Positions 1-37,091 of a stretch of 64,000 bases of DNA are shown one piece after another (positions within the stretch are counted from its first letter, which is position 1; each line of letters opens with the position of its first letter). The position numbers and the translations under genes are program-made. This DNA is from Austropuccinia psidii (taxonomy: Eukaryota > Basidiomycota > Pucciniomycetes > Pucciniales > Sphaerophragmiaceae). The stretch covers positions 4,249,888 to 4,313,887 of the forward strand of contig JALGQZ010000014.1 in assembly GCA_023105745.1 (NCBI GenBank). The letters are read 5' to 3'. A model generated the notes under the pieces. That model made no database searches, was not told the origin of the DNA, and was given only the letters and a program-made list of their open reading frames with translations.

Positions 1-1023
1 CAGGTGAGTTTTTTTTTATCTTTGTGCATGATACTTGATTATTGGCTGTTGACTGGTGATATAAATTGCAATATACAGGGTTAGATTTTTTTAAGCCAAC
101 TGAAACAGAAGCGTTTTTTGATTACAACATTTGGAATCTCAAATTGATGAAGGAATCAGCTAAACCTCCCGATAATCTCCCCAAATCTGAACACTCCTTC
201 TTCAAAATGGTTCAGAGCCTTCTTTACCCCGCCAATCCAGTTAAACATTTTTGGGCAAATGTTATGTTTGAATCCATTAGTTTAGTCTCATACGATGTGA
301 TTGCACCCAAACCATATGTTGCACCAACATCAAATTCGACTGATCCTCTTGGACTCGAACGGGGAGCAGTTGAATACCTTGCCTCCTGCTTGAGTAAATC
401 GAAGCAACGTGCAACCCAACTCAGCCTTGAAGGTGGCGGGGCTGACAATGAGATATCCACAAAGCCGCACAAGAACCTGGAGGATCTAATGGATACAGTT
501 ATCCATTTGATGATTGCGTACAACATGGTACGTGCACATACAAAGGTCGAAGTTAATGGCATCAAAGGCAAACTCACGAACTCAAAAAAAAAATGAGGCC
601 ATCAAAGATCTTTTGGCGTGTCACAAGAATCTCGGAATAAATCGAATTTGCTATGGTATATTAGCGGCATTCTGTGCGGCGGGGGTTCGTGGTTTGATGG
701 TATGCTCAGATGACTGGAGAACAAGCTCAGTTAAAGGGGCTTTATCACTAATTGACATTTCCGCAAAACTTTCAGAGGGTAAAAATCTAGTGGAGCCAGT
801 GTGGCTACGTACTAATAAGTATATATGTAATTTACTGAATAAAGGTTTCTTCTCATCAGAGTCTTTTAAACCCACTGTACCTCTTAGATTTGAATTTGCA
901 CGATGCTTAGTATTAGACTTTGGTGATGCCTGGGTGGCGAAACGCGGTCTTGGTTCAAGTGATGAGGTCACCTTGACGGTACCCAGGTCAGCTAAACTCA
1001 CAACCAGGATTGACCCGTTTTAG
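1..1023 (+). pseudogene. Unknown protein, 5'-partial, frameshifted at an A10 run
   Basis: The window opens with CAG followed by GTGAGT, so bases 1-3 look like an exon end. Bases 4-78 are an intron ending in TACAG, and the next exon starts at 79. It reads in one frame to a TGA at 594-596, directly after ten adenines (584-593). Removing one A joins it to a second frame that stays open to TAG at 1021-1023. Both halves look like real coding sequence (about 170 and 140 residues), so this is probably one gene split by a 1-nt homopolymer indel. I recognise no domain and assign no function. It is the leftmost member of the gene block that includes the TET/JBP, SNF2 and transposase genes, on the same strand as those three. 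An alternative is a consensus error in the A run, which would make the gene intact. Confidence 0.5.
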
Positions 1024-1600
1024 ATTAGCTTTGTACTAGATATATTGTAATTTAATTTTGCAAAGTTATTTATGAATTTAATAATCATGACTTCCTATCC
1101 TACTACTGCCCGGATGCCACAGTCTGAGTACCAATAGTAATTGTACGGGGGCATGCCTCCGTACATCATTGCAAAGACTCCGCCAAGACGCAAGCTGAGT
1201 CAGGCTTTGTGCCCGCGAGTAGCACACTCGGGGGCATTGCGGGAAGTCGCGTTTATCACTTCCCGCCAGCCCATAATAGGCAAATTGTTACTGTGTCTTT
1301 CAAGAGGACTGGGATAACTAGGGATCCGCAGCAGGATGCATATTGCATTTGCGTGTGCTTGCAATATTCCAAATGGTTGGATTGGAAAGTGATTGCATGG
1401 GAACATCAATGTGTAAAATTGAATAATGCACTATCCACTGCAATTTTCAGGTTCAGGTATTTGAGATCGTGAAGTTGCCAAGGTCAGGCGTGAGCTTTCT
1501 TTTTAGCCACAATTAAAAAAGATTCATCCACCGCAATCCAATTTAGGTGATATTAATAAATCAGTAATCATTTGGTTTCATTTCATTTTCTGCTGCAAGC
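1024..1600. other. Intergenic gap with dyad site 1
   Basis: No gene is supported here. The gap holds the first 26-bp dyad (1141-1166). Short ORFs on both strands at 1200-1472 have no family resemblance. The last bases before 1601 are presumably the 5' leader of the oxygenase gene. Confidence 0.4.
1141..1166. repeat. 26-bp dyad-symmetric site, copy 1
   Basis: The arms start TGTACGG and end CCGTACA around a central GGCATGCC. The inner 24 bases pair everywhere except one G-T pair. It is the first of five such sites and lies between the first gene and the oxygenase gene. Each arm carries one CpG. Confidence 0.75.
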
Positions 1601-2944
1601 ATGCCATTCACAAAAAAAGGAAAAGAGCGTAAAAGGGAACTCGCGAGAAAGCGTCGGGCTGAGGAAGGAAAGTGTGAGTTTCTCACTTAATCTCAGTGTA
1701 TATATATAGATATATATATATGCTTCCACATTTATGTGGCACCCTCATTGGGCCCCACGGAAGAACATTGGCTTTAGTCGGTTCAGATTGTGCCAATGTC
1801 CTGTGGGCTCTAAAGGGAAGTCAAAGGATGTGTGCCAAAGAAAGCTGCTTGGCAGTATCTGATATCTTTTGTGCTTCAACACATAGTGATCCCGCAACCA
1901 CTCGGGAATAGTAGCAGATCCCAAAAGACAAATGAGCGCAAAACGACCCGAATGAATAGGTTTTTTTCCTCCTCTCGCCCAACAGCACAAATATCAATGC
2001 CAGTATCAGCAAATATCACCCCAAGTGAAATTCGGAGGGTGGTGGATGTCAATCAGATCAAACGCATTCACTTTGGCCATGTGGCAATTTTCTCTTCAAC
2101 CGGATTACTCATTGCCCTTGTTGAATTCCGACCATTCACAACAATGAGTGAAGTCGAGGTCAATCAATGGGATGAATTATCACAATTCTTATTTCGCAAA
2201 AAGAGGTTCACTGACCCTATTGCAACAAATGGAGCATTACTGGAGGGATTTATGTTCGCGATTGGGTGGCGCAAATGCACCACGAAGAATGAACAATTTG
2301 GTCTGTATGGTAGTGCTGGCAAAATTGAAAATGCAAAAGATGAATGGCGGGACCGAGGTGCCAATCTTAGCTCGGTGGGTCGCATTCTAGGTCAATCCTT
2401 ACGATATGTTGGGGATAATTTATTTCAGAAGATTCAAAATTGCTACAACTCATTGGGGGTTCCGTCTTTTGATCAAGTCAACTATGAAGGCAATAATCCC
2501 GCAAATCAGGGTGCATGTGAGTTTGCTTCGGCACTCACTTTCACCATGAATGGATTCAAAAACGCACCTCATGTTGATAAGGATGCATCACTGTATGCTT
2601 CGGGATGGTGGTTTCAAGCTGATAAGCGGACCGGCCAAATTCAAAGAGATGCGTCAAAGCGGTGTACAGGGGGAAAATTGATTTTCCCAAATGAGCATTT
2701 TTGGATTGATCTATCCGCATGTCATGGGCTCATTCAGGTAGTGTGGGCCAGTAGTACATTTGTTCATTATACTGATCCAGCACAGGACAACGAAAGCACG
2801 ACACTAGTGGGTATGTCCGCACAATGCTCAAGGAGGTTGGCAAAAACAATGCGGCAAACAAGCCATGGCTATTATGAGATTGCCGAGAGAGCGGGCTATC
2901 AAATCAGGGATGGTAATACAATCTCATGCCGATTCAAAGAGTGA
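1601..2944 (+). CDS. TET/JBP-like 2OG-Fe(II) dioxygenase
   Basis: TET/JBP enzymes oxidise 5-methylpyrimidines in DNA using Fe(II), O2 and 2-oxoglutarate. Exon 1 (1601-1673) encodes a very basic start, MPFTKKGKERKRELARKRR, and ends at a good GTGAGT donor. The catalytic part is one open frame from about 1814-1985 to TGA at 2942-2944; the exact acceptor is not settled. The core shows HVD (H codon 2570-2572, D 2576-2578) after NGFKNAP, then GWWFQADKRTGQ. The distal His is probably that of FVHYTDPA (2765-2767), followed by an SRRL arginine pair. This layout is that of the 'Tet-like 2OG-Fe(II) oxygenase' family expanded in rusts and other basidiomycetes. Family members are known to travel with DNA transposons. 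No premature stop is visible, so it may be active. Dyad sites flank it on both sides. Confidence 0.82.
1674..1820 (+). other. Probable first intron of the oxygenase gene
   Basis: The donor GTGAGT at 1674 is strong. An acceptor AG ending at 1820 keeps the downstream catalytic frame but lacks a pyrimidine tract; AG ending at 1844 also fits the phase. The interval contains an alternating TATA microsatellite near 1697-1720. cDNA would settle it. Confidence 0.4.
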
Positions 2945-3072
2945 GGCAGTCGGAATAGCAGCGTGATTGGTAGATGATGGTGGGGTAAGGCAGAGGACAA
3001 TATACAACAGGATTGGATGGATTCGAGTGCGGGAGATAGGGTGTCTCACAGGAAAAAGGGGTGAAGTGGATT

Positions 3073-3098
3073 ATGTACGGAGGCATGCCATCGTACAT
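3073..3098. repeat. 26-bp dyad-symmetric site, copy 2
   Basis: The arms are ATGTACG and CGTACAT around GGCATGCC, with one G-T pair and one mismatch. It lies 128 bases after the oxygenase stop. With copy 1 it brackets that gene; the two share the left half TGTACGG.GGCATGCC. Confidence 0.75.
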
Positions 3099-3122
3099 AT
3101 GCCAGGTTTGTTGCTCTTGTCC

Positions 3123-3695
3123 AGGATCCCAACGCTTCACACGCGAATCCTTATGCTTGTGCAGGTGCCGACAATGCTAAAAGTTTCTTACGCCTATGCG
3201 GGGTGCCGAGGCTTCACACGCCAATCCTTACGCCTGGGCAGGTTCCCGACAACTCACACGCCAATCCTTACGCCTGTGCAGGTTCCCGACAGCTCACACG
3301 CCAATCCTTACGCCTGTGCAGACTCCCGAAAGCTCACACGCCGATCCTTACGCCTGTGCAGGCTCCCGACAGCTCACACGCCAATCCTTAGGCTTGTGAA
3401 GGTTGCCAACAATGCTGACAATTTGTTATGCCTGTGCAGGCTCCCGAAAATTCACACGCCAATCCTTACGCCTGTGCAGCCTCCCGACAGCTCACACGCG
3501 AATCCTTAGGCTTGTGAAGGATGCTAACAATGCTGACAATTTCTTACGCCTGTGCAGGCTCCCAACAATTCACACGCCAATCCTTTCACCTGTGCAGGCG
3601 CCCGACAGCTCACACGCCAATCCTTACGCCTTTTCAGGCTCCCGACAGCTCACACGCCAATCGTTACGCTTGTGAAGGTTCCCGACAATTTAAAC
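3123..3695. repeat. Minisatellite, 40-bp unit, about 14 units
   Basis: The array repeats a 40-bp unit containing CTCACACGCCAATCCTTACG, followed by a GCAGGTTCCCGACA-type stretch. Some units are shortened or changed, for example those with GCTGACAATTTCTTACG. Because 40 is not a multiple of three, all forward frames show runs of ANPYA/RQSLRL/TPILTP-like peptides. These are by-products of the repeat and not a protein. The core CACACGCCAAT recurs in the second minisatellite at 17.7 kb. Confidence 0.9.
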
Positions 3696-4110
3696 AATTC
3701 AATACATGACTAAGATTAATAGCGTGTGACCATAGGAACGGCAATTTCTCATGAATCTGGAGTGGATTGCTCACATGCCGGAACCTCCCGCTTTTTTACA
3801 GTTAAGATTTGATATGGCTCTAAACAATGGAGGAAGAAAATATAGGAGGCAGGAATGGTGACTATTGGCGCATTTTTGGCAAAAGATTTTCTCACATACA
3901 AAAATACTAACTCAAACTTTTGGTGGGGCACTTACGAAAATTATTCTCACCCAATAGTAAATATGAATCATTGAGGAATTATAATAAATTCACGTGAACA
4001 AAAAACGTAAGAGAAATTGAAAATATCTTTCATTGAATACAAATAATTTATCTAAAGGAGTGTATTACAAAAGGTAAAAAGAGGAAAGAATACGATTTTT
4101 TTTGTGGATT
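3696..4110. other. Gene-free stretch
   Basis: Between the 40-bp minisatellite and the stop of the minus-strand zinc-cluster gene I see no supported gene or repeat. The part near 4110 is presumably that gene's 3' UTR. Confidence 0.4.
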
Positions 4111-5452
4111 TTATTTTTCTAAGAATTTGGAGACTATCCCGGTGATGTCCTCCATTGGATAAGCCTCTATCGCCTCGCCAAGGAGGGAGTTTAGTTCCTC
4201 CCGGAATTCCCGGTGCATCTCATTTCGATGAGTTGCATCCACGAAAGGAATCATGTGGAGCAACCGATGATGCTCCAACAAGATTCGGTTGATCGATTCG
4301 TGGACGATGGCTCGAGGAATCATTAGTATCGGGCGCAGGTCGGTGAATTCCTGGCGAGCGTCATCGTAGGAATGAGAGGAGCTTGGCACCGGGGGGGAGG
4401 AGGCTGTTGGGTTCTCGGCGTCAATGGGAGGGATATCTGGGGTAGGAGTGGTGGGAGGGGGAACAGGAGGGGAAGGTGGGGGAGGGGGAGGAGGGGAACC
4501 GACTGGCGTATCGTCGATGATGATAATGGAGCGGGGAGTTGCGGGACGAGCTGGAGATGGTCGAAGGAGGGGTGAGGAAAAGTTGAGTTGAGTTAAAAAG
4601 GTGAAATAGGGACTTACCAAAAGGTTCCTCCGTTGATTGCGTAGGAGCCACCTCAGGTTGAGGCTCACGAGTCGCAATGTCCTCAGGTGGTTCGGAGGAT
4701 GGACTCGGGCCAGGAATAGGTGGCTCATTGTGCTGGGAGGCTTCTACAAAAGGAGAAAGAGTCAGTTAACTTGATGCGAAAGTGAAAATGAGAAAAGAGA
4801 AAGTTGGCTGCTTACCGCGGAATAAGTCCTCAGACCATCGGGTGCCACTCGGGCCTGGAGTGGGTTGCCGCGGGGTTTGCTCGCGAGGCAAAGTAGGAAC
4901 GGGAGAGTCTTGTTGGGGGGGATTAGGGGGGTTTGGTTCTATGAGTAATGGAAAAAAGTGAGTATTATTGCATGAAGATAAATGAGAGAAGGAGGAGAAA
5001 GAAAACTTACTTTGGCGTTTGAATCCCATCGGTGACAAGACATGGTGACGATCAGCCCAAGCTCGAATGTCCTCTTTCCATCGCCATCCTTCATCGGCCG
5101 GATAATCACTTCGCTCAGGTCGAGGAGTGAAGTGACCATCGGATGGTGGCCTAGGAGGGGGGGTGGACAAATCGATGCTTGAGGGGACTGGGCTAATCGT
5201 CCTGAATCGTTCCCGCTGGCCTGTTTGGGGTCCCGGGGTCCACTCACGCTCGGAAATCGTTTCATCATCATCGGCCACAAAGGAGTCCTGGCGAGGGCGT
5301 CTTGGGCGGGAACTCCTCTGGCCGCGGGGTCGGAAGGGGCGGACGACGAACGAACATTTCTTGTGTGCTTGTCGGCAAGCATCACAAGCGTCGGTCGTCG
5401 TCGAGGAACGAATGCAGGGGATACCCCGCTTGGTGCATAACGTGCACGACAT
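4111..5452 (-). CDS. Zn2Cys6-like proline-rich protein with SIM-like motif
   Basis: Four exons on the minus strand splice cleanly: 5452-5011, 4938-4816, 4743-4618 and 4550-4111, all GT..AG and phase-consistent, giving 376 aa. The N-terminus carries cysteines at 3, 6, 13, 23, 26 and 33, that is CX2CX6CX9CX2CX6C. This spacing fits a fungal Zn2Cys6 binuclear cluster, usually a DNA-binding domain. An Arg/Pro-rich stretch follows (residues about 37-55), then long proline-rich disordered sequence. Residues 238-244 read SIIIIDD, a good match to a SUMO-interaction motif: hydrophobic run followed by acids. The C-terminal 100 residues look helical. No fungal_trans middle domain is visible and the protein is much shorter than typical Zn2Cys6 activators. 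It sits between the oxygenase and SNF2 genes. A transposon-encoded DNA-binding accessory protein is my inference. Confidence 0.65.
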
Positions 5453-6035
5453 CTAAAAACAAAACAAAACAGGTTAGTAACTGAATAGAAAGTAAGCAAT
5501 CAAGAAAGAAAAGGAGGACATACAATGATTTATAATTTTAAAACGGAATTCAAATTAAAAAGACTCTAGTAGGAGGTTTTTAAAAGTCTAGAAGAGAGTC
5601 GTGAAGAAAGAAAATGATTAATATCGGACCATAATGTTGACAAAAGTTCAATTGGAGAAAACGTACAAAGTAGATAGAAGTGGGGTTCTGAAATTATCAG
5701 CAGGAAAAACAAAAAGCGAGCAGGAAGGGGAGTGGGGTTAGTCGAGTGCGAAAGAAAAGACTGGAAAGGCAGGAAGACGAGGGGGAATACGCACAAGAAG
5801 GACAAACGCGGGTGACGTTGAACGAAGTGGAGCGGGTGAGAGAGAAAGTGAAAAGTGCGTGTCGTGTGAAGATGGTCTTTTATACCAAGGTGAAGCTGAG
5901 ACGATTGCAGCAGTTTCAGCACCCGCAAAAGTCTCAGCTTCAAGGCGTGTGGGCAAAATTGAAGCTGAGTCTCAGCGAATGCTGCAACTGAGAAGTGAAA
6001 TGCTCGCGTGAGGCAGAAGAACAATGGGGGTCTGG
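5453..6035. other. Upstream region of the zinc-cluster gene
   Basis: This is the 5' flank of the minus-strand gene. ORFs on both strands (5566-6048) overlap one another and resemble nothing I know. No TATA-like site stands out. Confidence 0.3.
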
Positions 6036-6777
6036 CTGAGTATTGCAATTTATTGAATTGTCAAGCTGAGTCAAATCCCCTTTGTTTCCTTAAATAGCCA
6101 CCCGATCACCCAAGAGGGTGGTCGTGAGGCCCTTGTTGAATGTGCATTCAACGTGCAATGCACAAGTGACCCATGCAGAAATGCACCCGGTGCATTTGGT
6201 CACAAGTGACCGCGGCAAGATCACCGGCCGTATGGCCTGGTGATAGTCTTTGAACAAAGGGGGGGGCTGTAAGACAAGTGAATACAGCGTGAGCTTGCCT
6301 CGACCCATTGCTCAGGTTTGCTTTCGGGTCATAATTGAAATGCGCAGTGGCTGAACATTTTAATTGCACAGTAATTGAACAATTGATATAACAATATCAA
6401 ATGCACCGCTGAGTATTGCAATTTATTGAATTGTCAAGCTGAGTCAAATCCCGTTTCTTTCCTTAAATAGCCACCCAATCACCCGGGAGGGTGGTCGTGA
6501 GGCCCTTGTTGAATGTGCATTGTGGGTGCAATGCACAAGTGCCCCATGCAGAAATGCACCGGGTGCATTTGGTCACAAGTGACCGCGGCAAGATTACCGG
6601 CCGTATGGCCTGGTGATAGTATGTGAACAAAGGGGGGGCTGTAAGACAAGTGAATACAGCGTAATCTTGGCTCGACCCATTGCTCAGGTTTGCTTTCGGG
6701 TCATAATTGAAATGCTCAGTGGCTGAACATTTTAATTGCACAGTTGTTGAACTATTGATATAACAATATCAAATGCA
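6036..6777. repeat. 373-bp tandem direct duplication with LTR-like features
   Basis: Two copies lie head to tail: 6036-6408 and 6409-about 6777. Both start CTGAGTATTGCAATTTATTG and differ by scattered substitutions and a few indels. Each holds a purine tract AACAAAGGGGGG followed by CTGTAAGACAAGTGAATAC, which looks like a polypurine tract beside an LTR start. Each is also rich in short inverted repeats such as GGTCACAAGTGACC. Copy 1 has a perfect 8+2+8 dyad at 6134-6151 that is lost in copy 2. It may be an LTR-derived or TRIM-like remnant; no coding sequence is visible. Confidence 0.7.
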
Positions 6778-7973
6778 CGATGCTGAGCAATTGCTAGGTC
6801 ATTTTTGTAAGCACACAATCTGAGCATTTGGCACAGCATCGGATGACATTTCAGCCAGGTGCAGCATTTCACACGCTTTGGTGAAGTGCTCCAAATTGAG
6901 CCTTCCAGTGAGCTATTGCAGAATTAGTTCATTCCATGGCTTTACTGAGCACTTTCACACGGTGCTTTTGACCATGACATGCTCAGCTTGTGTGTGCAAA
7001 TCGGGTGAAACGCAATGCTGAGCATGTGGCACATGAGCTACGTAAATGCAAACGATCGGAAGGTGCATGCACATTTGCTGTATGCATGCAGGCTCAAGTA
7101 GTATTACACCTTCCTGATCTGTACAGTCGACACTGTAGTACGCAGTACACCTTTGTAAATGTACTGCGGGGCAGAGCAAAAAGCTGTTCAACAATGTAAC
7201 ATGCAATCACGTCAAGCCATCGAGTCATATCTCTCACCTGAATCCCTTTGATGCACCTTGCTGGACAGCTCTGCCTAACTACGGCACAGATGCGCATGTA
7301 ATGCAAGTTAATGTAAGTGGGTCATAATGGGATGACTTAATATTTGGGTCATACACAAAGAGTTGATTCACTCCGGTGCCATTGTTGGGGCAAACAATGA
7401 CTGGCCCGCTTGTTCATTGTTGGGAAGCCACACGCTTTCATGCGCACCCCCGATGGGTCATACGCAGGCAGCTTTCACACGCCTGGAAGACATTTTTCTG
7501 CCAGTCTTCCAGCTGCCTATTTTCTTGGTCGGGTTGTCAGCTTGACTGCAGACGCTCACCCGCTTGCGCGTGGAAACCTGAGGCCAATCAGTGTGAATTT
7601 GCTTCAGCCTCATCCACATTAGAATAACAATCCCAGCCTATGATTGCTGAGGCTGGTCATGTTTGCGTGGGTATCTCCCACCGCGGGTCATTTTCTTCAC
7701 GTTCTCACACGCCCCGCGCAAGTTGTGGCACCTGGCTTGGAGCCAAAAAATCCCTGGGGCGTGTGGCCTCTTTCCTCCGGAGTTTTGTACACGCCTGAGT
7801 CAAAGACCCTGATGCCAATCTCGGTAGATTAGTACTCGCCTCAAACGCCATAGGGGTGAATGTATATGTGGATCACGGCTCACGGATGGCGCCCCCTTTA
7901 ATCATCCTACACATTCCCCCCTGAAAGCCCAGTATGCATCAGTCAGCAAAAAACTTCACGCAAAACCAAAGTC
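6778..7973. other. Gene-free stretch between duplication and dyad pair
   Basis: I see no supported gene. ORFs at 6955-7206, 7363-7627 and 7644-7832 overlap in several frames and lack any motif. CACACGC words recur (about 7430, 7475, 7708) but not as an array. Confidence 0.35.
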
Positions 7974-7999
7974 ATGTTCGGTGGCACGCCACCGAACAT
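7974..7999. repeat. 26-bp dyad-symmetric site, copy 3 (perfect arms)
   Basis: Perfect 12-bp arms, ATGTTCGGTGGC and GCCACCGAACAT, flank a 2-bp centre. Compared with copies 1, 2 and 5, both arms carry T/A instead of A/T at position 5 and its partner, so the change is paired. Confidence 0.8.
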
Positions 8000-8113
8000 A
8001 TCTCACCCGCCTACACACAAGCATCCCCACAGTGAGATTGCCCTTTGAAACCGCCAAAATTGCCCAGTAGGTCCCTGTGCGACAATTAACCTGAGGAAGA
8101 TATATATGCATCC

Positions 8114-8139
8114 ATGTTCGCTGTCACACCAGCGAACAT
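8114..8139. repeat. 26-bp dyad-symmetric site, copy 4
   Basis: Ten-base perfect arms ATGTTCGCTG and CAGCGAACAT flank a 6-bp centre. Position 8 and its partner have swapped from G/C to C/G relative to copy 3, a second paired change. It lies 140 bp from copy 3 and about 370 bp before the SNF2 start. Confidence 0.75.
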
Positions 8140-8402
8140 GACTGCATGCCTCTGATATGCCCTCCACAATAAGTTGCTACAACCCACCCAATTTCGGATG
8201 TGCTAATGTCAACCTTGTTCCACCAAAGTTTTCGTAAATCGCTGCAGATCCAGCAGTCATAATGGTGCACCCACATTTTGGCCACCTTGCCTTGATATAT
8301 GCCCCAAATCGGATATGAAAATTATGTGCCCAAGAGGCCCACCTCCATCAAGACCATTCACGTAACCACAGGCCATCCCCCTTTTGGCCTGTTGCTGCCA
8401 CT

Positions 8403-8409
8403 CATATAA
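8403..8409 (+). promoter_or_regulatory. Possible TATA box of the SNF2 gene
   Basis: CATATAA lies about 100 bases before the ATG at 8506, a usual spacing for a fungal TATA element with a short 5' leader. There is no transcript evidence here. Confidence 0.25.
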
Positions 8410-8505
8410 GCTCCCCACCTGCGCTTATTGCGCTTCATTCCCTTTAGCTAACCCTTCCCGATCATATAATTTGCAACTGTCCCCAAATAATTTAAAATAG
8501 CCATC

Positions 8506-10938
8506 ATGTCAACGCCTTCACAACCACTTTGCATTGGGATGATTAATATTCGTATTCAAATAAATAGTGATATAACCTTAAAGCCTGAGAATTCTCACTT
8601 AGGTTCTTGGATTATCCTATGGCACAATCAACACAACATATTCGTATATCTCCCCAATCACCAGCATGCTATTGGCTCTCTCCCGGGAACCCTTTCCCAA
8701 ACGTTGATACCATTCCTTGGGGCACCAAAAACGTTCATGCACTGTGGTCCTGGTGGGGCATGGATTGAAAATTGCCAATCCAATCCTACTCAAATATTAT
8801 TCGTTGAGGGAGTATTTATGACTGATGCCAATGATCCCTCCTCATCTCAGAAACCCAATCTAGCATTGATGTTCTTCACATGGTATCCAAACATTCTATT
8901 CATAATGGAAAGCTTTCGAACACAAGATTTCAAGCTTAAAATGCCCAAAGAATATGACTGTACTACTCATTGTCAATGTCAACTCTTTACTCCGACATTT
9001 CCCGCTTCAAACTCGATGCCTGCTTCATATCCTGCTGTTTCATCATTGATTTCCAAGCAAAAACTGATACAATTACCCAGTGGATCAGACCTCCCCATGA
9101 TAACCCCGCCCCATGCCATTATTCAAACCCCCCTCCTCCCTCATCAAAAGACCGGACTAGCTTTCCTCTGGGATCGAGAAATCCCCAATGGCCAATCAGC
9201 CCGTAACCTTTGGGCCACCTCACCCCCAGGATCCACTTTCAATGCCAGGCACATCATTACAAACAAGGTCGTTAGCTCATTTGAATCCCTTTCGACCAAT
9301 ACCCCTCTTGGAGGACTGCTCGCGGATGATATGGGATTAGGTAAAACCATTCAGGCCATTGCTCTAATTGGTACCTCCAAGGAGCGGATGATTGCAAACC
9401 CCCATCGCTCCACGCCCACCATGATCATCTGCCCCCCTTGCTTAATTACCAACTGGCAATCAGAAATATCCAAGCATGCTCAGGCTGGAGCACTGCATGC
9501 CAAAATCTACCATGGTCCCACTCGTCACTCATTATCCCAAGCCGACATTTTAAAATATGATATCATCATCACTTCTTACAATACTATCACCCAAGAATTT
9601 AAGCAAACCAATCCCTCTACATCATTCATTTTTCAAATCAATTGGCATCGTATAATCTTGGATGAAGCACAGTGAGTGGCTGAGCTTAAATGATTCAAAT
9701 TACCTTTTATATCCAATAACCCTTTCCCCCTCTTATAGCTATATTCGCTCTCAATACACTGCCACTCACCGTGCCATTAATAGCCTCCTTTCATCCCGTC
9801 GAATATGTTTAACGGGCACACCTATTCACAACACCATTTATGACCTTTTGGGCATAATATCATTCATCACTCAACCCCAGAGCGCCGATCAAGATAACTG
9901 GTCACCATTCATCCTGAGTAGTCTTTCAAAAGGTTGCAATGATATTTTGCATTTGGCATTGCGGCATTTAAGTTTGCGCCGCACCAAAACCACACATCTC
10001 GAATCCCTCCCCACTATTAGCCATCATTATGAGCTGCTCCCACGCAACCCGACCATGCAGCAAGAATATTCCATATTATATGAAGAATTCCTATCATCCA
10101 AAAGCAAAGGACCAGGAGAATTTTTCAGAAATATTAATAAGCTGCGAATATGTTGTAACCATCACATCATGCTTAACACAATTGCGGAGGCGGAGTTGGA
10201 AGACCCCGAGGGCAGGAGCACTCAGGATAACTCCCCAAGAATCACACGAACTATTGTGGATGTGGAAACATGCATGATGAGTAGTAAAATTGCACACCTC
10301 CTACAAAGCTTAATGAAGAACAAACAAACAAGGTGTGGTCCGACGAAATCGGTGGTTTATACCCAATGGACCCAATTTCTAGATTTGTGCGTTAATTCTA
10401 ATATGCATCCATTACCAATTGACTCCATCTGACTTTTTTATATTGTAGAATTGGTATTGCTCTTGCCCATCACTCTATCCTTTCAGCACGAATTGATGGA
10501 ACAATTACACCACGAGCGCAGGACAAGGCGCTTGAGAGTTTCTTCAATAATCCTGAATGTGAAGTACTCATTGCATCCATTGCCGCGGCTGGAACTGGCC
10601 TCAATATAACTTGTGCTAATATAGTCTATTTAATGGTGAGGGGCCCCCCAAAATTCTCCCCTGATTTTCGGACCCTGACATCCACATTTCCAGGAGCCCA
10701 ATTGGAACCCAGCCATTGAGGCTCAGGCTGTTGATCGTCTACATCGTATTGGCCAACAACGACCTGTACAGGTCATCCACTATATCACTCCTCATTCAGT
10801 TGAGGTCAACATGCGGAAGGTACCTTTCAAGCTCATCTTTCACTTGATTGTGTTACTATTCTGAAATCCTTCCTTATGGGAATGCCATATTCCAATCACC
10901 AATAGGTCCAAGAAAAGAAAAAATCATTAACTGCGTGA
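8506..10938 (+). CDS. SNF2-family ATPase, Rad5/HLTF-like, no RING
   Basis: Five exons join in phase: 8506-9671, 9739-10386, 10449-10635, 10694-10819 and 10906-10938, giving 719 aa. All introns are GT..AG, 58-86 nt. SNF2 ATPases use ATP to translocate on DNA and remodel chromatin or displace bound proteins. Motif I is GGLLADDMGLGKT (about 269-281); the ADDMGLGKT form is typical of the Rad5/Rad16/HLTF clade. Motif II is DEAH (386-389), with its last codon split by intron 1. Motif III is LTGTP (about 413). In helicase domain 2, AAGTGLN and DRLHRIGQQRP (681 onward) are intact. The RING finger of Rad5/HLTF is absent and the protein is short for that clade. No stop or frameshift is visible. Kinetoplastid JBP2 fuses a SNF2 module to a TET/JBP domain; here the two are separate genes about 5.6 kb apart on the same strand, so a functional link is inference. 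Confidence 0.88.
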
Positions 10939-11207
10939 GCCTTACTGATATTATATAATTTGTGATTGACAAAGTTGATAACTCCTGTTGACTCTGGCAC
11001 AGGTCCACAATTATGAACACCATGAGCTGGATCGAACTTCTTCAATATTTCCTCAATGAAAATGAGCAATAGAGTATTATTGCAAGGGAGACGGTGATAC
11101 ATTTCAATTCATATTGTCTATATTCTAACATATTTAGCAAGTTGTTGCATCCTTAAGAGATAATAATCAGATTTTATTACACCTGCACAAATAATTCACA
11201 GAATTTT

Positions 11208-11238
11208 AATTTGTCACAGTGCTATACCGTGACAAATT
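11208..11238. repeat. 10-bp-arm inverted repeat after the 645-aa gene
   Basis: AATTTGTCAC and GTGACAAATT pair perfectly around an 11-nt loop. The structure starts 7 bases past the stop of the minus-strand gene, so it lies in its 3' UTR. It could mark 3'-end processing or be a small repeat scar. Confidence 0.6.
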
Positions 11239-11244
11239 ACTAAG

Positions 11245-13306
11245 TTATTGCAGAGCATCACCATTAGGCCTAATAACTGGCATGTCAAGTATCTTGAGGG
11301 CGCTAGTCTGCATCTTACTACAGCCTTTGAGCCAATCTTGATCAAATACCTGAAATGATAGGCCTTCCGGAATATCACCATCATCTGTCGATCGTAATTC
11401 TGGCAATCTATCAATAGTTTTTTTACCCTTTTTTTTAATCCTATTACAAAACTCTATGTCTCTATCCATTTTCAATACCAAATCATTAAATAACTGGGAG
11501 CGCCAGCGTAATCCCACTTTGCGGTAAACTTGACGGCCATTTTCCAGTATTTCCTCAGTATCTGAGCATACTCGAGGGTCATTGAATTGTGATGCTAGGA
11601 TGGGAAATTTAGCCGTATCACACCATTCACGACGGCGCTCACAGGTCTGCACATAATCAAGTAGATCATCATCAGACTTGGTCCACAATGAAGAAGAGAT
11701 ACAGTAACTAACTCTTTGACGAATCTTCGCGAGCTTTTGATTCTCCTTCTTTTTAACCAAATACTCCGCATCCTTTTGAATAGACTTCCATTCTCTTTTC
11801 AAATAAGTGAAATATCGCTCCATTAGAGCCGCCACGACCCCATAGTTGTTATGATCCTTGTTCCAACAGTAGTGATGATACTCAGTGCTGACAAGTGCGA
11901 GACGGAATGTACGGTAAAACACCATAGACATCAGCTCGTTAAACGGATGTTGCCATGAGCTCTCCCAGTCCCAAGTGAATCGCTTTAGTCCTAGCTTGTG
12001 GAGCTCATTTTCGCAGTAGCTTTGGAAACCCTGAGACTGAACCTGTGTTGATGGCTCATTGAAAACATCCTCGGGGACATAACCGAGATGACCAGCCACT
12101 TGAATTGCAATTTCACGCTCTTCTGTGCTGGGTGGTGCTGGTAGTGAGGAAAAATCCTTATCCCTAACTTTGAGTAGGAACAGGCAATGTGCGTGTACTG
12201 CTGATCTCATTCCATGGACATTCTCTGGAAGTTCTGCCTTCAGCCATTTTTGTTGCTCCTTCTGGCTTGCACGTTTCGCCACATTGTGAGCTTTGCGGGC
12301 CTGGTTCCTTTGCTGTCTGACCTCGGATTGTTCAAGCATACTCTGGGCAAGGCCCAGCTGAGGATGGGTGAACTCACTATTTGATTGAGTGCCTTGCTCA
12401 TGCGCGGTGAAATTGTCCCTCGTTGGTTCATCATTTCTTTCACTTTGAGTCGGAGACATGTTCTCATCCTCATCATCCACCATTCTTTCTCTTGATGTAC
12501 TGGCATGACCCGTTCTTGGTTTGGAGGCATATGGATGATGACGTCCAGTGACTTTCTCTTTATGGACCAGAGGTGAAGACGCATAAAGTTCATCCCCTGC
12601 CATGCAAATCATCAGTTAACACATCAAAACATTAATGAAGACTGGTGATACTCACGATCTTCAATTGGCTCCTGAGATCGGACTGACTTGCCTTTAGGTG
12701 CCATATCTAACCCATGAAACAAACATATCAAATTGTGAATAAGTTTCTACTCCAAAATTCAAATGACTTACTTTGATGAAGCGTCAATACTGGATTTCCC
12801 TCTGACAGACCGCTCCAAGAGACATTTTCCAAAGGTCTTTTTCGTCGCCCCCCATCCACGCGCCTTTCATCACCCACATGAACCTGAGATCCTGATGGAA
12901 TATTGAGGGTTGGCTGTTTACTTTGGCCAAAGGGATCCTGGGATGCGACTGGATTCCGACCGGGATTAAGGAGGAACTCACGTGGAAATTTTGATTGGGG
13001 ATTAGCGTGTGATGAGATTTGAGGTGTGCCTTCTGGCCCCTGAGACACATGAATTTGTGTATTAGTGGGATTCGGGGGAATTGGAGTGACGGAAATATTT
13101 GGGATCGACCAAGTGCTTGAAATTGGAGCCTTTGGATTGCCCACATCAATGTTAAGACCTGATACATTCATTGAGGATGCGATAGGGGTTGTGAGAGGAA
13201 TGTTGGGACTCAATGGTGACTGTGTTTGAACATATTCTATGCTAGATTCACTATTTGAGTCATGAACAGAACCTGAACGGGATTTATGTGACTTGAAAGA
13301 TGACAT
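11245..13306 (-). CDS. Unknown 645-aa protein, probable transposon companion
   Basis: Three minus-strand exons join in phase: 13306-12772, 12706-12656 and 12596-11245, all GT..AG. The first 180 residues are Ser/Pro-rich and look disordered. The middle is charged and helical (QSEVRQQRNQARKAHNVAKR). The C-terminal half, from about residue 320, is rich in Trp, Tyr and Arg (WDWESSWQHPFNELM, YFTYLKREWKSI) and looks globular. It ends with a WR....ND.V...DRD.E pattern and FDQDWLKG. I recognise no named domain. From memory, its layout (RRR core, a short acidic SDTEE segment, a WRS..F segment, then a terminal 'DQxWL') resembles unnamed proteins that accompany KDZ-type transposases in other basidiomycetes; this is a weak inference. 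It is convergent with the SNF2 gene (306 bp between stops) and divergent from the transposase. The reading frame is intact. Confidence 0.7.
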
Positions 13307-14266
13307 AAGGGCCGAAAAAGTACAGTAATATTTTTAACTAGATAAAACACCTCAGTATTATGATAAAATAGAGTGATATGAGATGAAATCTTTTCAAATT
13401 TAGAATAGAGAAATTCTATGAATAGTTGGAACTAAGTGTTGTGTGGAAGTCGGATAAGACTCTTTTGAGGAGAATCCTCCCTGCCTCCTCTTGAGCTCCT
13501 CCGCTTTTGTCGGAAACCACCCTGCACGGCCTACCAGAATATAATGTGATATTTCCTTGATCTGAAAGGGGACCCATCATCCATAAGTAATCATATTTGG
13601 TAACATTTCCGCCTCCCCATTGTCACATTTTGTGAATTATCCAAACTGCCAATATATGCATTGAAATTCCACAACATTGTACATCTGTAAAGGGGTATAT
13701 TCATGAAGGATTTACCCACAAAAGAGACATCACCTTTTCACGAAAGGCAAGACAATCCAAATCACATTCCAACTGATTCAAAGCCCGCCGCACTCAAACC
13801 AAATACCAAGACTTTAGCTGCACTCCACCCCCTTATGTAATAGAGTTATATAGTTATGTCTGTAATAAGGTTTAAACCATGTACGATGGCGTGCCAGCGT
13901 ACATGGGTTAAATGTTAATCCCCTCAATTCAATGGTAACACTTCACTAATGGAACCCCCTCAATGGTAAAACCCGCACTATCACAATGTGTAAATAAACT
14001 AGAATATGTATGAGCATTGAGCAGCATGGCATTTTACCCAATTAAACGCCTAACCAATTCCGCCATCCAGATGAGACATGTTAAACTTTATCCACTGCAG
14101 CTCATGCTCCATTACAAATGGGATAAAATCCTCAGCTGGCTCAAATCATCTCCCCCTTCATAAATAATCACTGAATTTTATTCCCAATTAATAACACTCC
14201 TAAACACTTTCACATCAACCATAGATATTTATACACAAACCAACCGTACTCCCAATTCCTGCAACA
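13307..14266. promoter_or_regulatory. Divergent promoter region of the 645-aa gene and the transposase
   Basis: This 960-bp gap separates two divergent genes, so both promoters should lie here. It contains dyad copy 5 and, about 35 bases before the transposase ATG, TATTTATA (14226-14233). No gene is visible. Confidence 0.4.
13879..13904. repeat. 26-bp dyad-symmetric site, copy 5
   Basis: ATGTACG and CGTACAT arms flank a TGGC..GCCA inner stem and a 2-bp GT centre, with one mismatched pair. The outer symmetry extends to CC..GG. It sits midway in the divergent intergenic region, about 570 bp from the 645-aa gene start and 360 bp from the transposase start. Confidence 0.75.
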
Positions 14267-17200
14267 ATGACAACCCGGCCCTATTCCTCAATGCGTATAT
14301 GCATGTGTCAACACTGCTCAACTCAAACACACTCTTCCCCTGAGGGTGATAAGCAAGGAGTTGCCTTCACACCTTTCCAATATAAACAGCACATTAAAAA
14401 GCTCAAATCAACCATTGCACCCAAATCTCTTCCAAACATCCCTACTTCTGCATCAGGATCTGGGTGCCCACAAATTCTATTGGATCAAATCTTCCCAGCT
14501 GATTATTCACGTTTGACCCAAAGCACTTTCCCAACTGCAGCGGGTCTCAATTCAACTGCACAGAAACCATATAGTGGCAGTCAAACCCTTCCCCCACAAG
14601 ACCTAGGAATGATAATATCTGCCATTCTATCATTAAGGTATAATTTACCCCGCAGGGCTTCACGCATACTCAACCCCGCCCTGAACCTGCTGATCAAGTC
14701 CAGTATCTCAAGCTCAGCTGGTCCCCCCGCTCCTGCATTCCATATACCTCAAGATCTGAGTACCATATTTGAACATCTCCAATTGGAGCCAGTGATTCAA
14801 AACTATATATGTTGTCCTCAATGTTTCTCTCTTAATGGCCTTACTGAATCAGTCACAACTGACCAACCCCACTGTCAACGCCATAATGACCCAAATGATC
14901 ATGATCCCCCTTGCACACAATCATTAGGCAAATTCATCTATTCATCTGAACCCCACACCCAAAACACAACCAACATGAAGCAAAAATTTATACCAACAAA
15001 ACATTTCATTTATCAACCATTCAAAAATTGGCTTGCCAGATTTCTCCAGCGGGCTGGAATTATGGACATTCTGCATCAACATCAACAATCCCAAACTCCC
15101 GAAGATTCCCCAAAACGTGACGTCTGGGATGGATTGGTCTGGAGACGCTTCACTGGCACTAGAAATATCCATGACCCCCCATTCATGTCCATTCCTGGTG
15201 CATTGGCCTTCTCCATATATGTGGACTGGTTTAATGCACATGGAAAGTCAACCCGGTTGGCTAGCATTGGACCTATCATGCTTATTTGTCTTAATCTCCC
15301 CCCAAGTGAAAGATTGAAGCCCGAGAATGTCTATGTTGCAGGAATCATCCCTGGTCCGAAGGAGCCAACTGCGCTTCAATTGAATTATCTATTAATGCCA
15401 CTCATCAACGAGCTCAAAGAGCTATGGCAGGGTTACCATTTTGCACCCACCTCAACAGGTCCATCAGGATCCTTTATCCGTGTTGCCATCCTCACAGCCA
15501 TTGCGGATGTGGTTGCCATGCGCAAGCTTACTGGATTTATTTCCCATTCAGGAAACCACTTTTGTAATTTTTGCACCATTCACAAAGCTCAAATTGAAGA
15601 AATTGGTCCTCAATTTCACTACACGCGCTCATACCAAAGTCATAAATCAACCATTGCCAAATGGCTTCGGGCAACCCCACAACAAAGACAAGCAATTTTC
15701 TCTGAGTATGGAGTGTGATATTCAATTTTGGAAGACCTTCCGTATTGGGATGCAACCAGAATGGTTAATCTTGACATAATGCATAATTTAATACTTGGAA
15801 TTTTGAAGGATCATGCAACTTTCAAATTGTGCATTCCAGAGGCGAAATCAAAAATTTACTTCAGGTCCCGCAGGAAATCCAATGACACCAACAGTTCAGA
15901 CTCAGATTCCAAGACCTCCAACAGCTCTCTTGATAAAATCACATTGAGAGAGGCCCGCTCCCTGAGAAGAGACGCAGCAAAAATAATAAATGAGCCACTC
16001 CCCACTACTTCCACCCGAAAAAACTACTTCCCAATGCCCACCCCTAACACAGAACATCCATCTAGTGGTTCTGCGGAGATTCCTTCATTTGATGCCGATT
16101 ACATCCCCACTTCTGAAATACCCTCTGAATTGGATATCACTGCACTGAGTGATCACCAGATCAAGGGTGAGGCTCTTGAGCATCTCCGACAAATCATATC
16201 TGAGACCATAATTCCCTCATCATGGACAAGAGTTCCCCGCAAAATGGGTTCCCCCTCTCATGGTAGCTTAAAAGCCGCTGAATGGGCTCTCTTATATAAG
16301 GTCTATATTCCATTTCTAATGCTCAGTCAACAGATGTCATTAGATGCACACCAATCTGCCAACACTCAAAGAAAAATGGGTCAGTCAGAAGAACTTGCAA
16401 ATGAACTAGCCAAGAATACATTCCATTTGATTAGTGCTATCAACATTGCCACAAGCTGGACTGTTTCAATAGATGATGCGACTGCATTTGCTGAACATTG
16501 GAAAAAATTCCGCCTTTCCAATCAACACCTGTTCCCAAAACAGAAAAGTAAACCAAATCATCATTTTGCTGATCATATTCCCGAACTCTTCCAACGTTGG
16601 GGCCCAGCACAAGCCTCAGCCACATGGGGTTATGAGCGCTTGATTGGAGTATTTGCAAAGATGCCAACAAATAACAAGATATGTACGTCAATTAATAAGA
16701 TCAATATATTCACATTGATGAAACACCTGAACTGAATAAGACTAACTTTTTGCAACTCTGAATAGATGATATAGATAAAACCTTACTTCAACATATCTGT
16801 CGATGTTCCAACCTTTCCGTTCTCCTGAAATCCCCATCTGTGCCATGTGAAATAAAAAATCTTTTCGAATCACAGCCACCTGCCGTGTTCAATCACCATA
16901 AATATAACAAGCCATCCCGCCATGACCAACAAAATTATGCTTGCCTGGTTGAGTACTTACAGAATTTTCATTCCACAAGGGAAGTAGTTGATTGGATCAG
17001 CTTAGACACTACCATGCAATCCACAAGTCCTCCCACTTCAAGGATTGTCTCACCTTGGTATTTTCCAGTTTCAAACATTAATATTGGGAACAATATATTT
17101 TCAACTGAATCCAAAAATATCAGCAACAGTGTGATATGTTTTCTGAGGGGCAACTCACGACAATTTGGTATTATTGATAGCATTTTCAAAGTCTCTGAGC

Positions 17201-17427
17201 CATCTAGCATACTGAATAATAACTTTCTGATTTTAAAAACTTTGAAGATTGATGTGAATTTCCTACCAGATTGGCCGTATCTCAATATTTATAAAGCTGT
17301 TGGTTTTGATGATGGACACTTGATTATATCAGAAGAAGAAATAGAAGGTAACTGTGGATTGTATGATAACAAAGCTCTGTCATGTGGACTGCTTGTAATG
17401 ATAAAGCCGTTATTTCATGATATTTAG
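14267..17427 (+). pseudogene. Plavaka/CACTA-like DNA transposase, one in-frame TGA
   Basis: Two exons, 14267-16682 and 16766-17427, join in phase (GTACGT..AATAG) for 1,025 codons. The N-terminus has a CX2C pair (CMCQHC) typical of the family's zinc region. The RNase-H-fold core shows YVDWFNAHG, VYVAGIIPGPKEP, GFISHSGNHFCNFC, a VNLDIMHNLILGIL block and WGYERLIGVF. These are the signature blocks of basidiomycete Plavaka (Tnp2/CACTA-related) transposases. The frame is open except for TGA at 15716-15718, between GV and YSILEDLPYWD. Arg is common there in relatives as I recall, so a CGA-to-TGA transition is likely. Everything downstream is preserved, so the loss is recent, or the stop is a sequencing error or read through. 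The 30-bp minisatellite lies about 280 bp past the stop codon, where CACTA-type elements usually keep subterminal binding repeats. Confidence 0.82.
15716..15718 (+). other. Premature TGA in the transposase
   Basis: The stop lies in the same frame as both flanking coding blocks; no intron with GT..AG ends removes it cleanly. Confidence 0.8.
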
Positions 17428-17710
17428 TCTACAAAAATGCAAATCTCTCAGATTCATTAGCAATTTTGCTAGTGAAATAATTGCCTCAAAATTTAGTGAC
17501 AGAGACATGCCATTGTGACAAGCAAAGCCCATTATTTCACATTGCCACAAAGAACTTACTATTTTGACATTGGGTACAGTGTGAATAAGCCAAGTCCAAT
17601 GATCAAATGACCCACACACTCACCTTTCATAGCATCCAAAATTTCTAACTGCGCCATCATCATGTTGGAAGCGGAATCGGCTTTTGTGTACCCACACCCG
17701 CATGTGCACC

Positions 17711-17944
17711 CGCACGCGCCAATGCACACGCCCACGCACCCGCACACGCCAATGCACACGCAAACCCACCCGCACACGCCAATGCACACGCAAACCCACC
17801 CGCACACGCCAATGCACACGCCCACCCACCCGCACACGCCAATGCACACGCAAACGCGCCCGCACACGCCAATGCACACACAAACGCGCCCACACACGCC
17901 AATGCACACGCAAACGCGCCCGCACACGCCAATGCACACGCACA
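17711..17944. repeat. Minisatellite, 30-bp unit, about 8 units
   Basis: The unit is CGCACACGCCAATGCACACG followed by CAAACCCACC, with CCCAC or CAAACGCGCC variants. The 30-bp period gives open frames in several registers on both strands (for example repeated CIGVCGRVCV on the minus strand), but these are repeat artefacts. Its position just 3' of the transposase gene suits a subterminal repeat of that element. Confidence 0.92.
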
Positions 17945-20152
17945 CTTCATGGATGACCTGGTGAAGTCAAACCCCCCGCCTACATCAAAACTGGCTGAAG
18001 GACATCTTTGATGTGTGTGTGTGCAAACAGGCGGGTCTGGTGTAATTTTTACCAATCATCGGACGGTTGTGGGATGATCAGGTGGTGAGGAATCTGAGTT
18101 GAAGGCACAGGGGAACCAATATTATTGGATGTCACAGGATTTGGTGTAAGACCAGAGTGTGACATGTGCTTGACGTTTGCTTGACGTGAGCTCGACTTTT
18201 ATCCTGCTTGACGTTTGCTTGACGTGAAGTCAATCGCCGACGATTGACACGAGATTCGCCCCGGTGTGTCACTTCTTCATTTTTAATCAAGAGTCTACCG
18301 AAATTACACCTTAGCTACTTGTTATTTTAGTTTCCTCTAATTTTTTTACTTGGCTGTTAGTCTCATTGGTAAAAACTTCCTCAACTTGATTTATTCAAAC
18401 CTTCATCTTGACAGCGTTAGCCATATCTTTCATGATGGTTGATCTCCAGAGGTGCTTATCAATGTTTTCATTTCTTCTATCACCTCCTGTTTGGAACGTT
18501 TGTGCGTTTTTGTTTGCCATTCCTCATACCGGGAGAAAGAGTACAGTCAAGGGGCGGGTTTAAAGGGGAAGGAAGTCTTGAAGATTTTGCTATCTTGGAG
18601 AGGCCTCCAGGTAATTGCTGATGAAAAGAAGTAGCCAAGCTCGAATTATTCAGCATGGCATTTAGAGGGGCCACTAGCCATCGGAATTAATCTAAATCTG
18701 AAGTCAACACAACAACAAGCAAAGCCTTATGTTTATTGAGGCGTTATTTGGGCTTGTTGCTGGCGCCAATCGATCCATTCAGTGAATTTAGGCATGGGCT
18801 ATACCCATTACATATCATATCACTATCAGGCTCAGTTGGCGATTGATGCTTGACTGTTGAAATGAGCGCTAGAGCACTACAACCCTCATTATGGGCAGGC
18901 ACGGGCAATGCTCCATCCATATACTGTACATCGATCCAAGTGCTTGTGCCCTGGTATGGAAGCAATCACAGTTGAGGACAAATCGGACTTGAGCCTCTGT
19001 GCACCCTGCTCTCACCCAGACGTGCAGTCCGCGCAAACATGCGCAAAAGCTGGTATATATCTCCAACTGGACATGGCGAACTATGGACTGCTAAAATAAA
19101 GGGGGAACCTTGTGCTACTTCGGCCTGAGGTACTTTCAAAATCTAGGTGAGCGGGCTGAATGCACTGTTCATTCGAGTGGGGTGAGCATATCCACACTGT
19201 CTCATCGCCAAAGACACCTTCAACGGACAACTAGCTCTGGTGCTTTAACCTTTAGTGACGAAGTTTTGGACCAAATAGGGACCTCGTGTACTGAGCCTCT
19301 TGGGTAAGCTTGATGGCATTCTTTCCCTTGTCTCGGACTCTATTACACTGTTCTTGCCAGGGTCGTATAGCTCTTTTCCTGAAGCTTTGTTTTCTGTTGA
19401 CAGTCAATGATGCCTTTGCCCCCAGCTGAGCTTAGCTTTCTAACGGAAAGAATGCTGCGATGAGGTCTCCGTCATAAGTGACAACCGCCTCGAATATTCT
19501 CACTTAAAAGATCGTGATGGCTGAATTTTGTCGATAACATTTCAGGAAAGTATCACTATAAGATATCATCTTTGTGAATGCCCAAGAACCTACCAAATGG
19601 CGCGTACCCTCAGGCGACACAAGCAGCTATTGCATGGGTCACCTGAGTAATACGTTGCGTTTGACTTCTGAGTTCCGTCAACGATAGATAGCATAGGGGT
19701 GGGCCAATCTTAACGAGGCATAACTGTAGCCGAAGATGCTGGAGTTGTCCGGTTATATATCTAAGGCGTGACTCACAAATATTTTGCGCATCATCTCCAT
19801 GCAGAACAATGCTTTCGCGATGCACCGGTTATATTAAGCAATGGAGTTATCCTGGGCTGAAGGCAGTATGTCCTGTAGAAGCAGAGGGTGCTTTCCTCCT
19901 GGTCCATTACGGTGTTTGGTCCAAGGCCGTTGGCATGGCCAAATCGTTGATAATGCAGTGACAGTGAGTCAGAGTTAGCCATCAGCATCATTACTGTATG
20001 GCAGATTTTGTTCGCTTCAAAATCTTTCCCAGCGGAAAAACAAGCAACCCGATACTATCAGACACTTGTTCGCCCAAGTGGACGATATATCAGGGTCATT
20101 CTCTGTTTCCTTTCAAGCTCATCTTGCCTCACATTACAAGCTTCCCCCTCAC
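17945..20152. other. Gap between transposase block and host gene
   Basis: No gene is supported. Near 18,166-18,226 the words GCTTGACGT(TT/GA) repeat four times as two pairs. At 18,229-18,248 GTCAATCG and CGATTGAC form an 8-bp-arm dyad. The right end of the mobile block may lie here. ORFs at 18,439-19,825 on both strands are short and featureless. The last several hundred bases should include the promoter of the next gene. Confidence 0.4.
18166..18248. repeat. TTGACGT short repeats and adjacent 8-bp-arm dyad
   Basis: Four GCTTGACGT words fall as two pairs separated by a CTCGACTTTTATCCT spacer. They are followed at once by GTCAATCG-CCGA-CGATTGAC. It could be an element end or a cluster of CRE-like TGACGT sites. 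Confidence 0.55.
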
Positions 20153-37088: not shown

Positions 37089-37091
37089 TGT

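Follow-up and report, generated by a model that had tools for sequence, protein, structure and literature searches.

The window analysed here, a stretch of 64,000 nucleotides from the myrtle rust fungus Austropuccinia psidii (C14:4249888-4313887 in an assembly of 84 contigs and 1.015 Gb), begins with a block of six genes; the analysis also took in the 8 kb that precede the window. The block is one mobile element, a DNA transposon of the CACTA/EnSpm type, and all six genes were inserted as a unit. In order and orientation they are gene A (+), a TET/JBP-like oxygenase (+), gene B (-), an SNF2-family ATPase (+), gene C (-) and a transposase (+) (Table 1). The first-pass annotation had placed six genes at 1..17950 and proposed that they form a composite element. 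All six are present, although the leftmost begins outside the window and its last exon contains a frame break, and shared ends, terminal inverted repeats (TIRs) and target site duplications (TSDs) in many copies hold them together. The element extends beyond the proposed limits on both sides, and the open reading frame at 16762-17427, also present, is probably the second exon of the transposase and not a gene of its own.

Table 1. Features of the element in window coordinates; negative positions lie to the left of the window.
Feature	Position	Strand	Remarks
Whole transposon	-2497..18266 (20,764 bp)	+	1..18266 in window, left 2.5 kb outside; ends common to a second copy; TSD TGT at both flanks
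Right TIR, 46 bp	18221..18266	-	Left partner at -2497..-2452, outside window; TSD TGT at 18267-18269
Gene A	1..1023	+	End of exon 3 (1-3) and exon 4 (79-1023); splice sites inferred; left part beyond window
TET/JBP-like 2-oxoglutarate-Fe(II) oxygenase	1952..2944	+	330 amino acids, one exon, open frame; PF20515, E = 5.4e-47
Gene B	4111..5452	-	Four inferred exons; N-terminal Cx2Cx6Cx9Cx2Cx6C (Zn2Cys6-like spacing), proline-rich
SNF2-family ATPase	8506..11072	+	741 amino acids, six inferred exons, open frame; Pfam lobes, motifs; nearest PDB entry Rad5
Gene C	11245..13306	-	645 amino acids, three inferred exons; no known family
Transposase, Transposase_21, CACTA type	14267..17427	+	Exon 1 14267-16682, inferred exon 2 16766-17427 (GT/AG splice)
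Palindrome, less symmetrical	about -1700		Before gene A
24-bp palindrome TGTnCG-N12-CGnACA	1142..1165		Between gene A and TET
24-bp palindrome	3074..3097		Behind TET, between convergent TET and B
24-bp palindrome	7975..7998		Upstream of SNF2
24-bp palindrome	8115..8138		Upstream of SNF2
24-bp palindrome	13880..13903		Between divergent C and transposase
Minisatellite, 40/118-bp unit	3118..3687		Behind TET
Tandem repeat, two copies of about 372 bp	6035..6778		In the gap between B and SNF2; shared with copy C9
Minisatellite, 30-bp unit	17706..17945		Right subterminal

The element is bounded by a 46-bp inverted repeat, CACC(A/G)GGGCGAATCT.., with CACC..GGTG termini. A copy on contig C9 is 98.7% identical to the window copy across the whole block, and the identity stops sharply at both ends. 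This C9 copy sits in a Gypsy element, and its joined flanks align without a gap to a Gypsy copy that lacks the insertion (297 bp, 96.3% identity), which identifies an empty site. Six full copies were compared, namely the window copy (W), C9, and four copies on contig C1 (C1a to C1d) that were picked by TIR position alone. They align across about 20 kb with a divergence of 0.4 to 5.8%. Perfect 3-bp TSDs flank all six as well as 17 of 18 further TIR pairs spaced 20 to 22 kb apart (23/24 together).

A 35-base TIR pattern, with at most two mismatches allowed, was matched 1,826 times in forward and 1,830 times in reverse orientation in the genome, while the same pattern read backward had no match. 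If every end belonged to a full copy, there would perhaps be about 1,800 copies, making up 38 Mb or 3.7% of the genome; CACTA is described as the transposable element (TE) class second to Ty3 in A. psidii in the sections of PMC12774611 covered here. Among 100 places listed on C1 with zero mismatches, 31 consecutive facing TIR pairs were found, of which 22 are spaced 20.1 to 22.2 kb, five 30.7 to 35.7 kb and four at least 87 kb, with none below 20 kb. The five pairs of 30.7 to 35.7 kb (for example, C1:12133052-12168773) are perhaps elements holding another insertion.

Gene order and orientation are identical in all six full copies. Among 109 TET matches, gene C lies on the opposite strand 8.8 to 10.1 kb downstream in at least 45, and the transposase lies on the same strand 11.8 to 19.4 kb downstream in at least 28; four wrong-orientation controls gave 0, 0, 0, and 1, the gene C control being 0. 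These counts are lower bounds because the ranked lists hold the best-scoring copies alone (109 TET, 93 C, and 86 transposase). The idea that six genes from unrelated elements became adjacent by chance has a next to negligible probability: the palindromes at 1142 and 3074 do resemble, at first sight, separate TIRs around TET, but the constant order, the recurrent C neighbor and the single outer TIR pair with TSDs stand against it. The order and the outer pair likewise refute separate elements inside the block, and neither unrelated neighbors nor internal elements with their own TIRs, the two outcomes that would have spoken against the first-pass proposal, occurred. The window copy keeps TET, B, SNF2, and C open; its transposase carries a stop and its gene A a frame break. 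Every gene has a full-length open frame in two or more of the six copies, and the breaks differ among copies.

The transposase frame matches Transposase_21 (PF02992) with an E value of 6e-16 and, on a different piece, Plavaka (PF18759) with an E value of 0.033. Its first frame encodes 822 amino acids where open; in the window copy a single stop at 15716-15718 interrupts it, in agreement with the one break seen in the first pass. An 836-codon open frame is found in 65 of 86 scored relatives and a 497-codon frame in 3, W included. HFCNFC, a candidate for the C(2)C motif, is visible in the frame. In the three copies looked at, the subterminal repeat CTTGACGT occurs three to four times near the right end, and a shorter TGACGT is present twice, inverted, near the left end. 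The element thus has the CAC..GTG TIR termini, 3-bp TSD, tnp2/Transposase_21 domain and subterminal repeats that define CACTA/EnSpm. The transposase had initially been called Plavaka, a membership now rejected: Transposase_21 scores better, and the ends are CACC..GGTG, not CATCA..TGATG or TGT..ACA. In the parts of Kojima 2025 (PMC12730594) covered here, rust elements with CAC..GTG ends and a 3-bp TSD are classed as EnSpm, and no TET-bearing Plavaka was found. KDZ membership is rejected as well, since the TSD has 3 and not 8 bp and no KDZ family is among the Pfam matches to an E value of 0.1. A giant Starship-type element was also considered, and is disfavored by the TIRs and by a transposase of the CACTA type.

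The DNA oxygenase with an HxD motif of the first-pass annotation is borne out by the PF20515 match, HxD at residues 207 to 209 and a distal His at 272. HxD and the distal His are present in 30 of 30 TET loci picked by protein similarity, 26 of them stop-free, and TET is stop-free in 97 of 109 scored copies, a set ranked by protein similarity and hence biased to intact ones. A PDB sequence search with TET gave no match up to an E value of 1, and its AlphaFold model is poor (predicted local distance difference test score [pLDDT], 33.8), so that the TET fold is putative, a point against the explanation preferred below. The best 120 of 292 relatives are all from A. psidii. Two gene models of A. 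psidii MF-1, P0136 and P0238, fuse transposase-like or gene-A-like N termini to TET; these fusions are probably artefacts of annotation or deletion, by which the element escapes notice in gene sets.

The SNF2 gene is separate from TET, 5.6 kb away with gene B in between. Removal of its five inferred introns makes it complete, as the first reading had it. The SNF2 lobe (E = 2e-52), Helicase_C (E = 1.7e-15) and all six helicase motifs sought are present. Despite Rad5 as the best PDB match, neither HIRAN nor RING, the marks of Rad5/HLTF proper, is found among the Pfam matches to an E value of 1. Among the best 120 of 4,960 relatives, drawn from candidates capped at 7,994, nine A. psidii proteins share 74 to 85% identity; the next-ranked relative, from an ascomycete, has 34% identity over 70% of the query, and some others reach 44% over about one-fifth of it.

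Gene A encodes 677 amino acids in C9 and C1a and 535 in the window copy, in which the frame of exon 4 is broken; no Pfam family scored above the cut-off. The gene B product has 376 to 389 amino acids, with a cysteine spacing that fits Zn2Cys6, a Pfam Zn_clus match below the cut-off (E = 0.039) and one Cys missing in C9. All 38 protein relatives found for gene C are from A. psidii, and the AlphaFold model of its exon 3 is poor (pLDDT, 59.9). The intergenic gaps and the sequence ahead of gene A hold the palindromes, six of them in the window copy; with at most one mismatch allowed, every one of the six copies has five or six. All five within the window lie inside the element, against an expectation of 0 from 100 shuffles. 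The fixed-core form occurs at 4,546 sites in the genome (backward control, 0), and 42 of 50 listed sites lie inward of, and at most 22 kb from, a listed TIR, in zones that make up 3.6% of the stretch. Two of the five window palindromes have the form CGG-N10-CCG, to which some Zn2Cys6 proteins bind; together with the cysteine pattern of gene B this makes a candidate link, which we offer as a lead. A minisatellite with a 51-bp unit is located near the left end (L031:5857-6281).

Substitution patterns show purifying selection on all six genes in one comparison, made between two largely intact subfamilies. For W and C9 against C1a and C1b, the ratio of nonsynonymous to synonymous substitution rates (dN/dS) was 0.30 for A, 0.31 for TET, 0.25 for B, 0.18 for SNF2, 0.16 for C and 0.20 for transposase exon 1, with one-sided binomial p values of 0.00019, 0.0035, 2.2e-9, 7.3e-5, 7.3e-6, and 0.0076, respectively. 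Each ratio averages four pairs that have a branch in common and so count as one comparison, and the p values come from rounded means; few copies were sampled, and CpG hypermutability is left in dN/dS. Comparisons involving the decayed copies C1c and C1d gave ratios of 0.24 to 0.69, exceeding the intact-subfamily values for most genes. Close pairs, with tiny counts, do not carry the signal in every gene: 1.68 for A (W-C9, 6 and 1 changes), 0.57 and 0.59 for B, and 0.58 for SNF2 (C1a-C1b, 4 and 2 changes).

Because purifying selection extends to all six genes, TET, SNF2, A, B, and C seem to do work for the element and not to ride along as passengers. That TET and SNF2 are captured genes useless to the element would accord with the passive transfer of TET between rust transposon families described in the sections of Kojima 2025 (PMC12730594) covered here, and with the SNF2 ratio of the pair C1a-C1b. 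We consider this improbable in view of the TET and SNF2 ratios between the intact subfamilies and of the stop-free frames in most scored TET copies, even with the bias of that set to intact ones. Between C1a and C1b (L035-L040), TET has a dS of 0.048 compared to 0.004 to 0.011 in SNF2, C, A, and the transposase, and gene B is hypervariable between subfamilies (dS, 0.20). The uneven dS of TET and B suggests a mosaic formed by exchange of segments between copies.

CpG content offers a further view of the relation between the element and host methylation. Methyltransferase genes have been reported in A. psidii (PMC8063080), and methylation of cytosine at CpG (5mCpG) is higher in younger TE families (PMC12774611), according to the passages covered of each. 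The observed/expected CpG ratio of the element is 0.56 to 0.66, while the surroundings of the window and C9 copies have 0.04 to 0.21, save two gene-bearing stretches (0.60 and 0.70). As proof of protection, this early contrast (0.66 versus 0.04 to 0.21) is mostly undone by a control with hAT elements and by matched mutation spectra.

Several observations weigh against protection. Inserted copies decay quickly at CpGs: the closest two copies differ by transitions at 43 of 1,405 CpG sites versus 14 of 7,893 other C/G sites, a 17-fold excess, and the excess is 12.9-fold among TET loci less than 0.5% divergent (14 pairs). Decayed copies have a CpG excess of 5.8 to 8.0, the same as hAT pairs (5.1 in four pairs at 1 to 2.5% divergence and 7.2 in 15 pairs at 3 to 5%). 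Intact hAT genes keep a median CpG ratio of 0.80 (n = 20; range, 0.25 to 1.14), although these control genes were picked for open frames, may be low-copy and may in part travel with a TET gene. The transposase exon itself is CpG-poor (0.38). On the other side, between the intact subfamilies the CpG excess is 2.5- to 2.9-fold overall and 3.1- to 3.8-fold in coding parts, the latter somewhat below the 5.1 of hAT pairs in a small sample, which we counted in favor of anti-silencing. Given the fast CpG loss and the equal CpG content of hAT genes, the sequences show no clear mark of protection; whether TET protects the element can be neither proven nor ruled out from CpG content.

Polarised C-to-T changes are most often at TCG (9/24, 7/15, 8/27, and 10/32). 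At codon boundaries, the element genes have lost 27 to 65% of the expected CpGs (found/expected: TET, 10/18.9; SNF2 exon 1, 7/20; C exon 3, 11/23.3; transposase, 22/30.3), two host-like genes little or none (26/25.5 and 20/23.5), and four Gypsy copies almost all (1 of about 32). An abundant Gypsy pol, examined in nine copies, has 1 to 3 CpGs in 2,262 bp. Many copies of this family (L047-L054; window 26559-27203 and 37089-39140) have 1,904-codon open frames with near-zero CpG, and the family seems to tolerate methylation through prior CpG loss. A gene at window 20418-22244 that by eye resembles a pyridoxal phosphate enzyme, with host-like CpG content, adjoins the element, and fragments of a TYW1-like gene, also judged by eye, lie at 50665-52918 amid AT-rich repeats.

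The best explanation, to which we give a probability of roughly 0.6, is a high-copy six-gene CACTA/EnSpm element whose genes are under selection and whose TET and SNF2 counter the silencing of source copies. Anti-silencing would thus be the likeliest role of the two enzymes, as far as the sequences can tell. The host would methylate the CpGs of young transposons, and the TET-like enzyme of the element would oxidise the methylcytosine. The Rad5-like SNF2 motor may open or clear DNA or chromatin, giving access to oxidation or to the transposase, so that source copies could stay expressed long enough to transpose, while inserted copies would still decay through CpG mutation. More speculatively, B or C might recognize the palindromes near promoters and direct the enzymes there. 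Carried further, this would become a sequence-specific demethylation regulon, in which B or C binds the six palindromes and recruits TET and SNF2 to source copies, unbound or decayed copies being left to the host; we regard this extended form as unlikely. A kit by which the element might open or protect its own DNA had already been proposed in the first-pass annotation. Purifying selection supports the part of it that says the genes matter to the element, while the CpG tests gave no clear evidence for protection, and we keep it as a proposal. That TET-bearing elements escape silencing and C-to-T mutation has also been proposed by Kojima 2025 (PMC12730594), where, in the sections covered, it is described as not experimentally validated.

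The same selection on all genes is explained equally well if TET and SNF2 help transposition itself or what becomes of the new copy, through access to target or donor ends, marking of the element's DNA or repair, and do not reverse silencing. The DNA-repair protein Rad5 as the nearest PDB entry of SNF2 and the lack of a clear CpG signature of protection fit this alternative, which we hold to be somewhat unlikely. Other known CACTA elements transpose without TET or SNF2 genes, which speaks against it. So does the methylation of young TEs by the host, a ready substrate for the oxygenase (PMC12774611, in the passages covered). Action in trans, with the host or other transposons as target and a host-useful oxygenase amplified by the element in the service of the fungus, appears very improbable: oxidised methylcytosine in Coprinopsis also marks retrotransposons, as told in the parts of Kojima 2025 (PMC12730594) covered here, but the genes belong to an element with perhaps ~1,800 copies, and in four of the six full copies at least one gene besides B is broken.

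TET-bearing EnSpm elements of rusts, A. psidii included, share with this element the CAC..GTG ends, the 3-bp TSD, an EnSpm/Plavaka-like transposase and a TET/JBP gene, as described in the covered sections of Kojima 2025 (PMC12730594), and the A. psidii EnSpm family of that study may be this very element. In its main text, SNF2, ATPase, zinc, and "copies" each occur zero times and helicase once, for Helitrons; palindromes of this kind are unmentioned in those sections, and none are reported at the borders of the compared TET segments. We found no report of SNF2 in TET-bearing or EnSpm fungal transposons in the literature covered, which takes in few subscription journals, nor any mention of SNF2 in the covered passages of PMC8063080, PMC12774611, and PMC12210899. 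For transposon-encoded SNF2, dioxygenase and methylcytosine, one review was found, whose transposon-TET passages, among those covered, only cite Kojima. Genes B and C and the palindromes look undescribed, with no literature search made on them. Rust EnSpm elements that carry TET and have termini of this type are thus already known, while the selected SNF2 motor, the further conserved genes and the element-specific palindromes look new. KDZ transposons with TET/JBP (Iyer 2014, as cited in the covered sections of Kojima) are alike in linking a DNA transposon to TET/JBP and differ in transposase class and in the 8-bp TSDs of Zisupton.

With perhaps ~1,800 close copies, measured host 5mCpG, intact and broken TET and SNF2 genes and defined motifs, the family makes the contest between an oxygenase and silencing testable. 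The presence of a second conserved chromatin-type enzyme beside TET would imply that more is needed than the erasure of methylation.

Kinetoplastid JBP2 also brings TET/JBP and SNF2 together, there as one fused host protein acting on thymine, whereas in the A. psidii element TET and SNF2 are two separate transposon genes. Spm TnpA is a transposon-encoded anti-silencing protein that binds its own element. In plants, the VANC proteins of VANDAL transposons similarly counter their own silencing by binding their own sequence, according to the covered parts of PMC5735166 and PMC10398659. Both VANDAL/VANC and Spm TnpA work without an oxygenase, whereas the rust element has a putative one and its DNA-binding part, gene B or C, is suspected.

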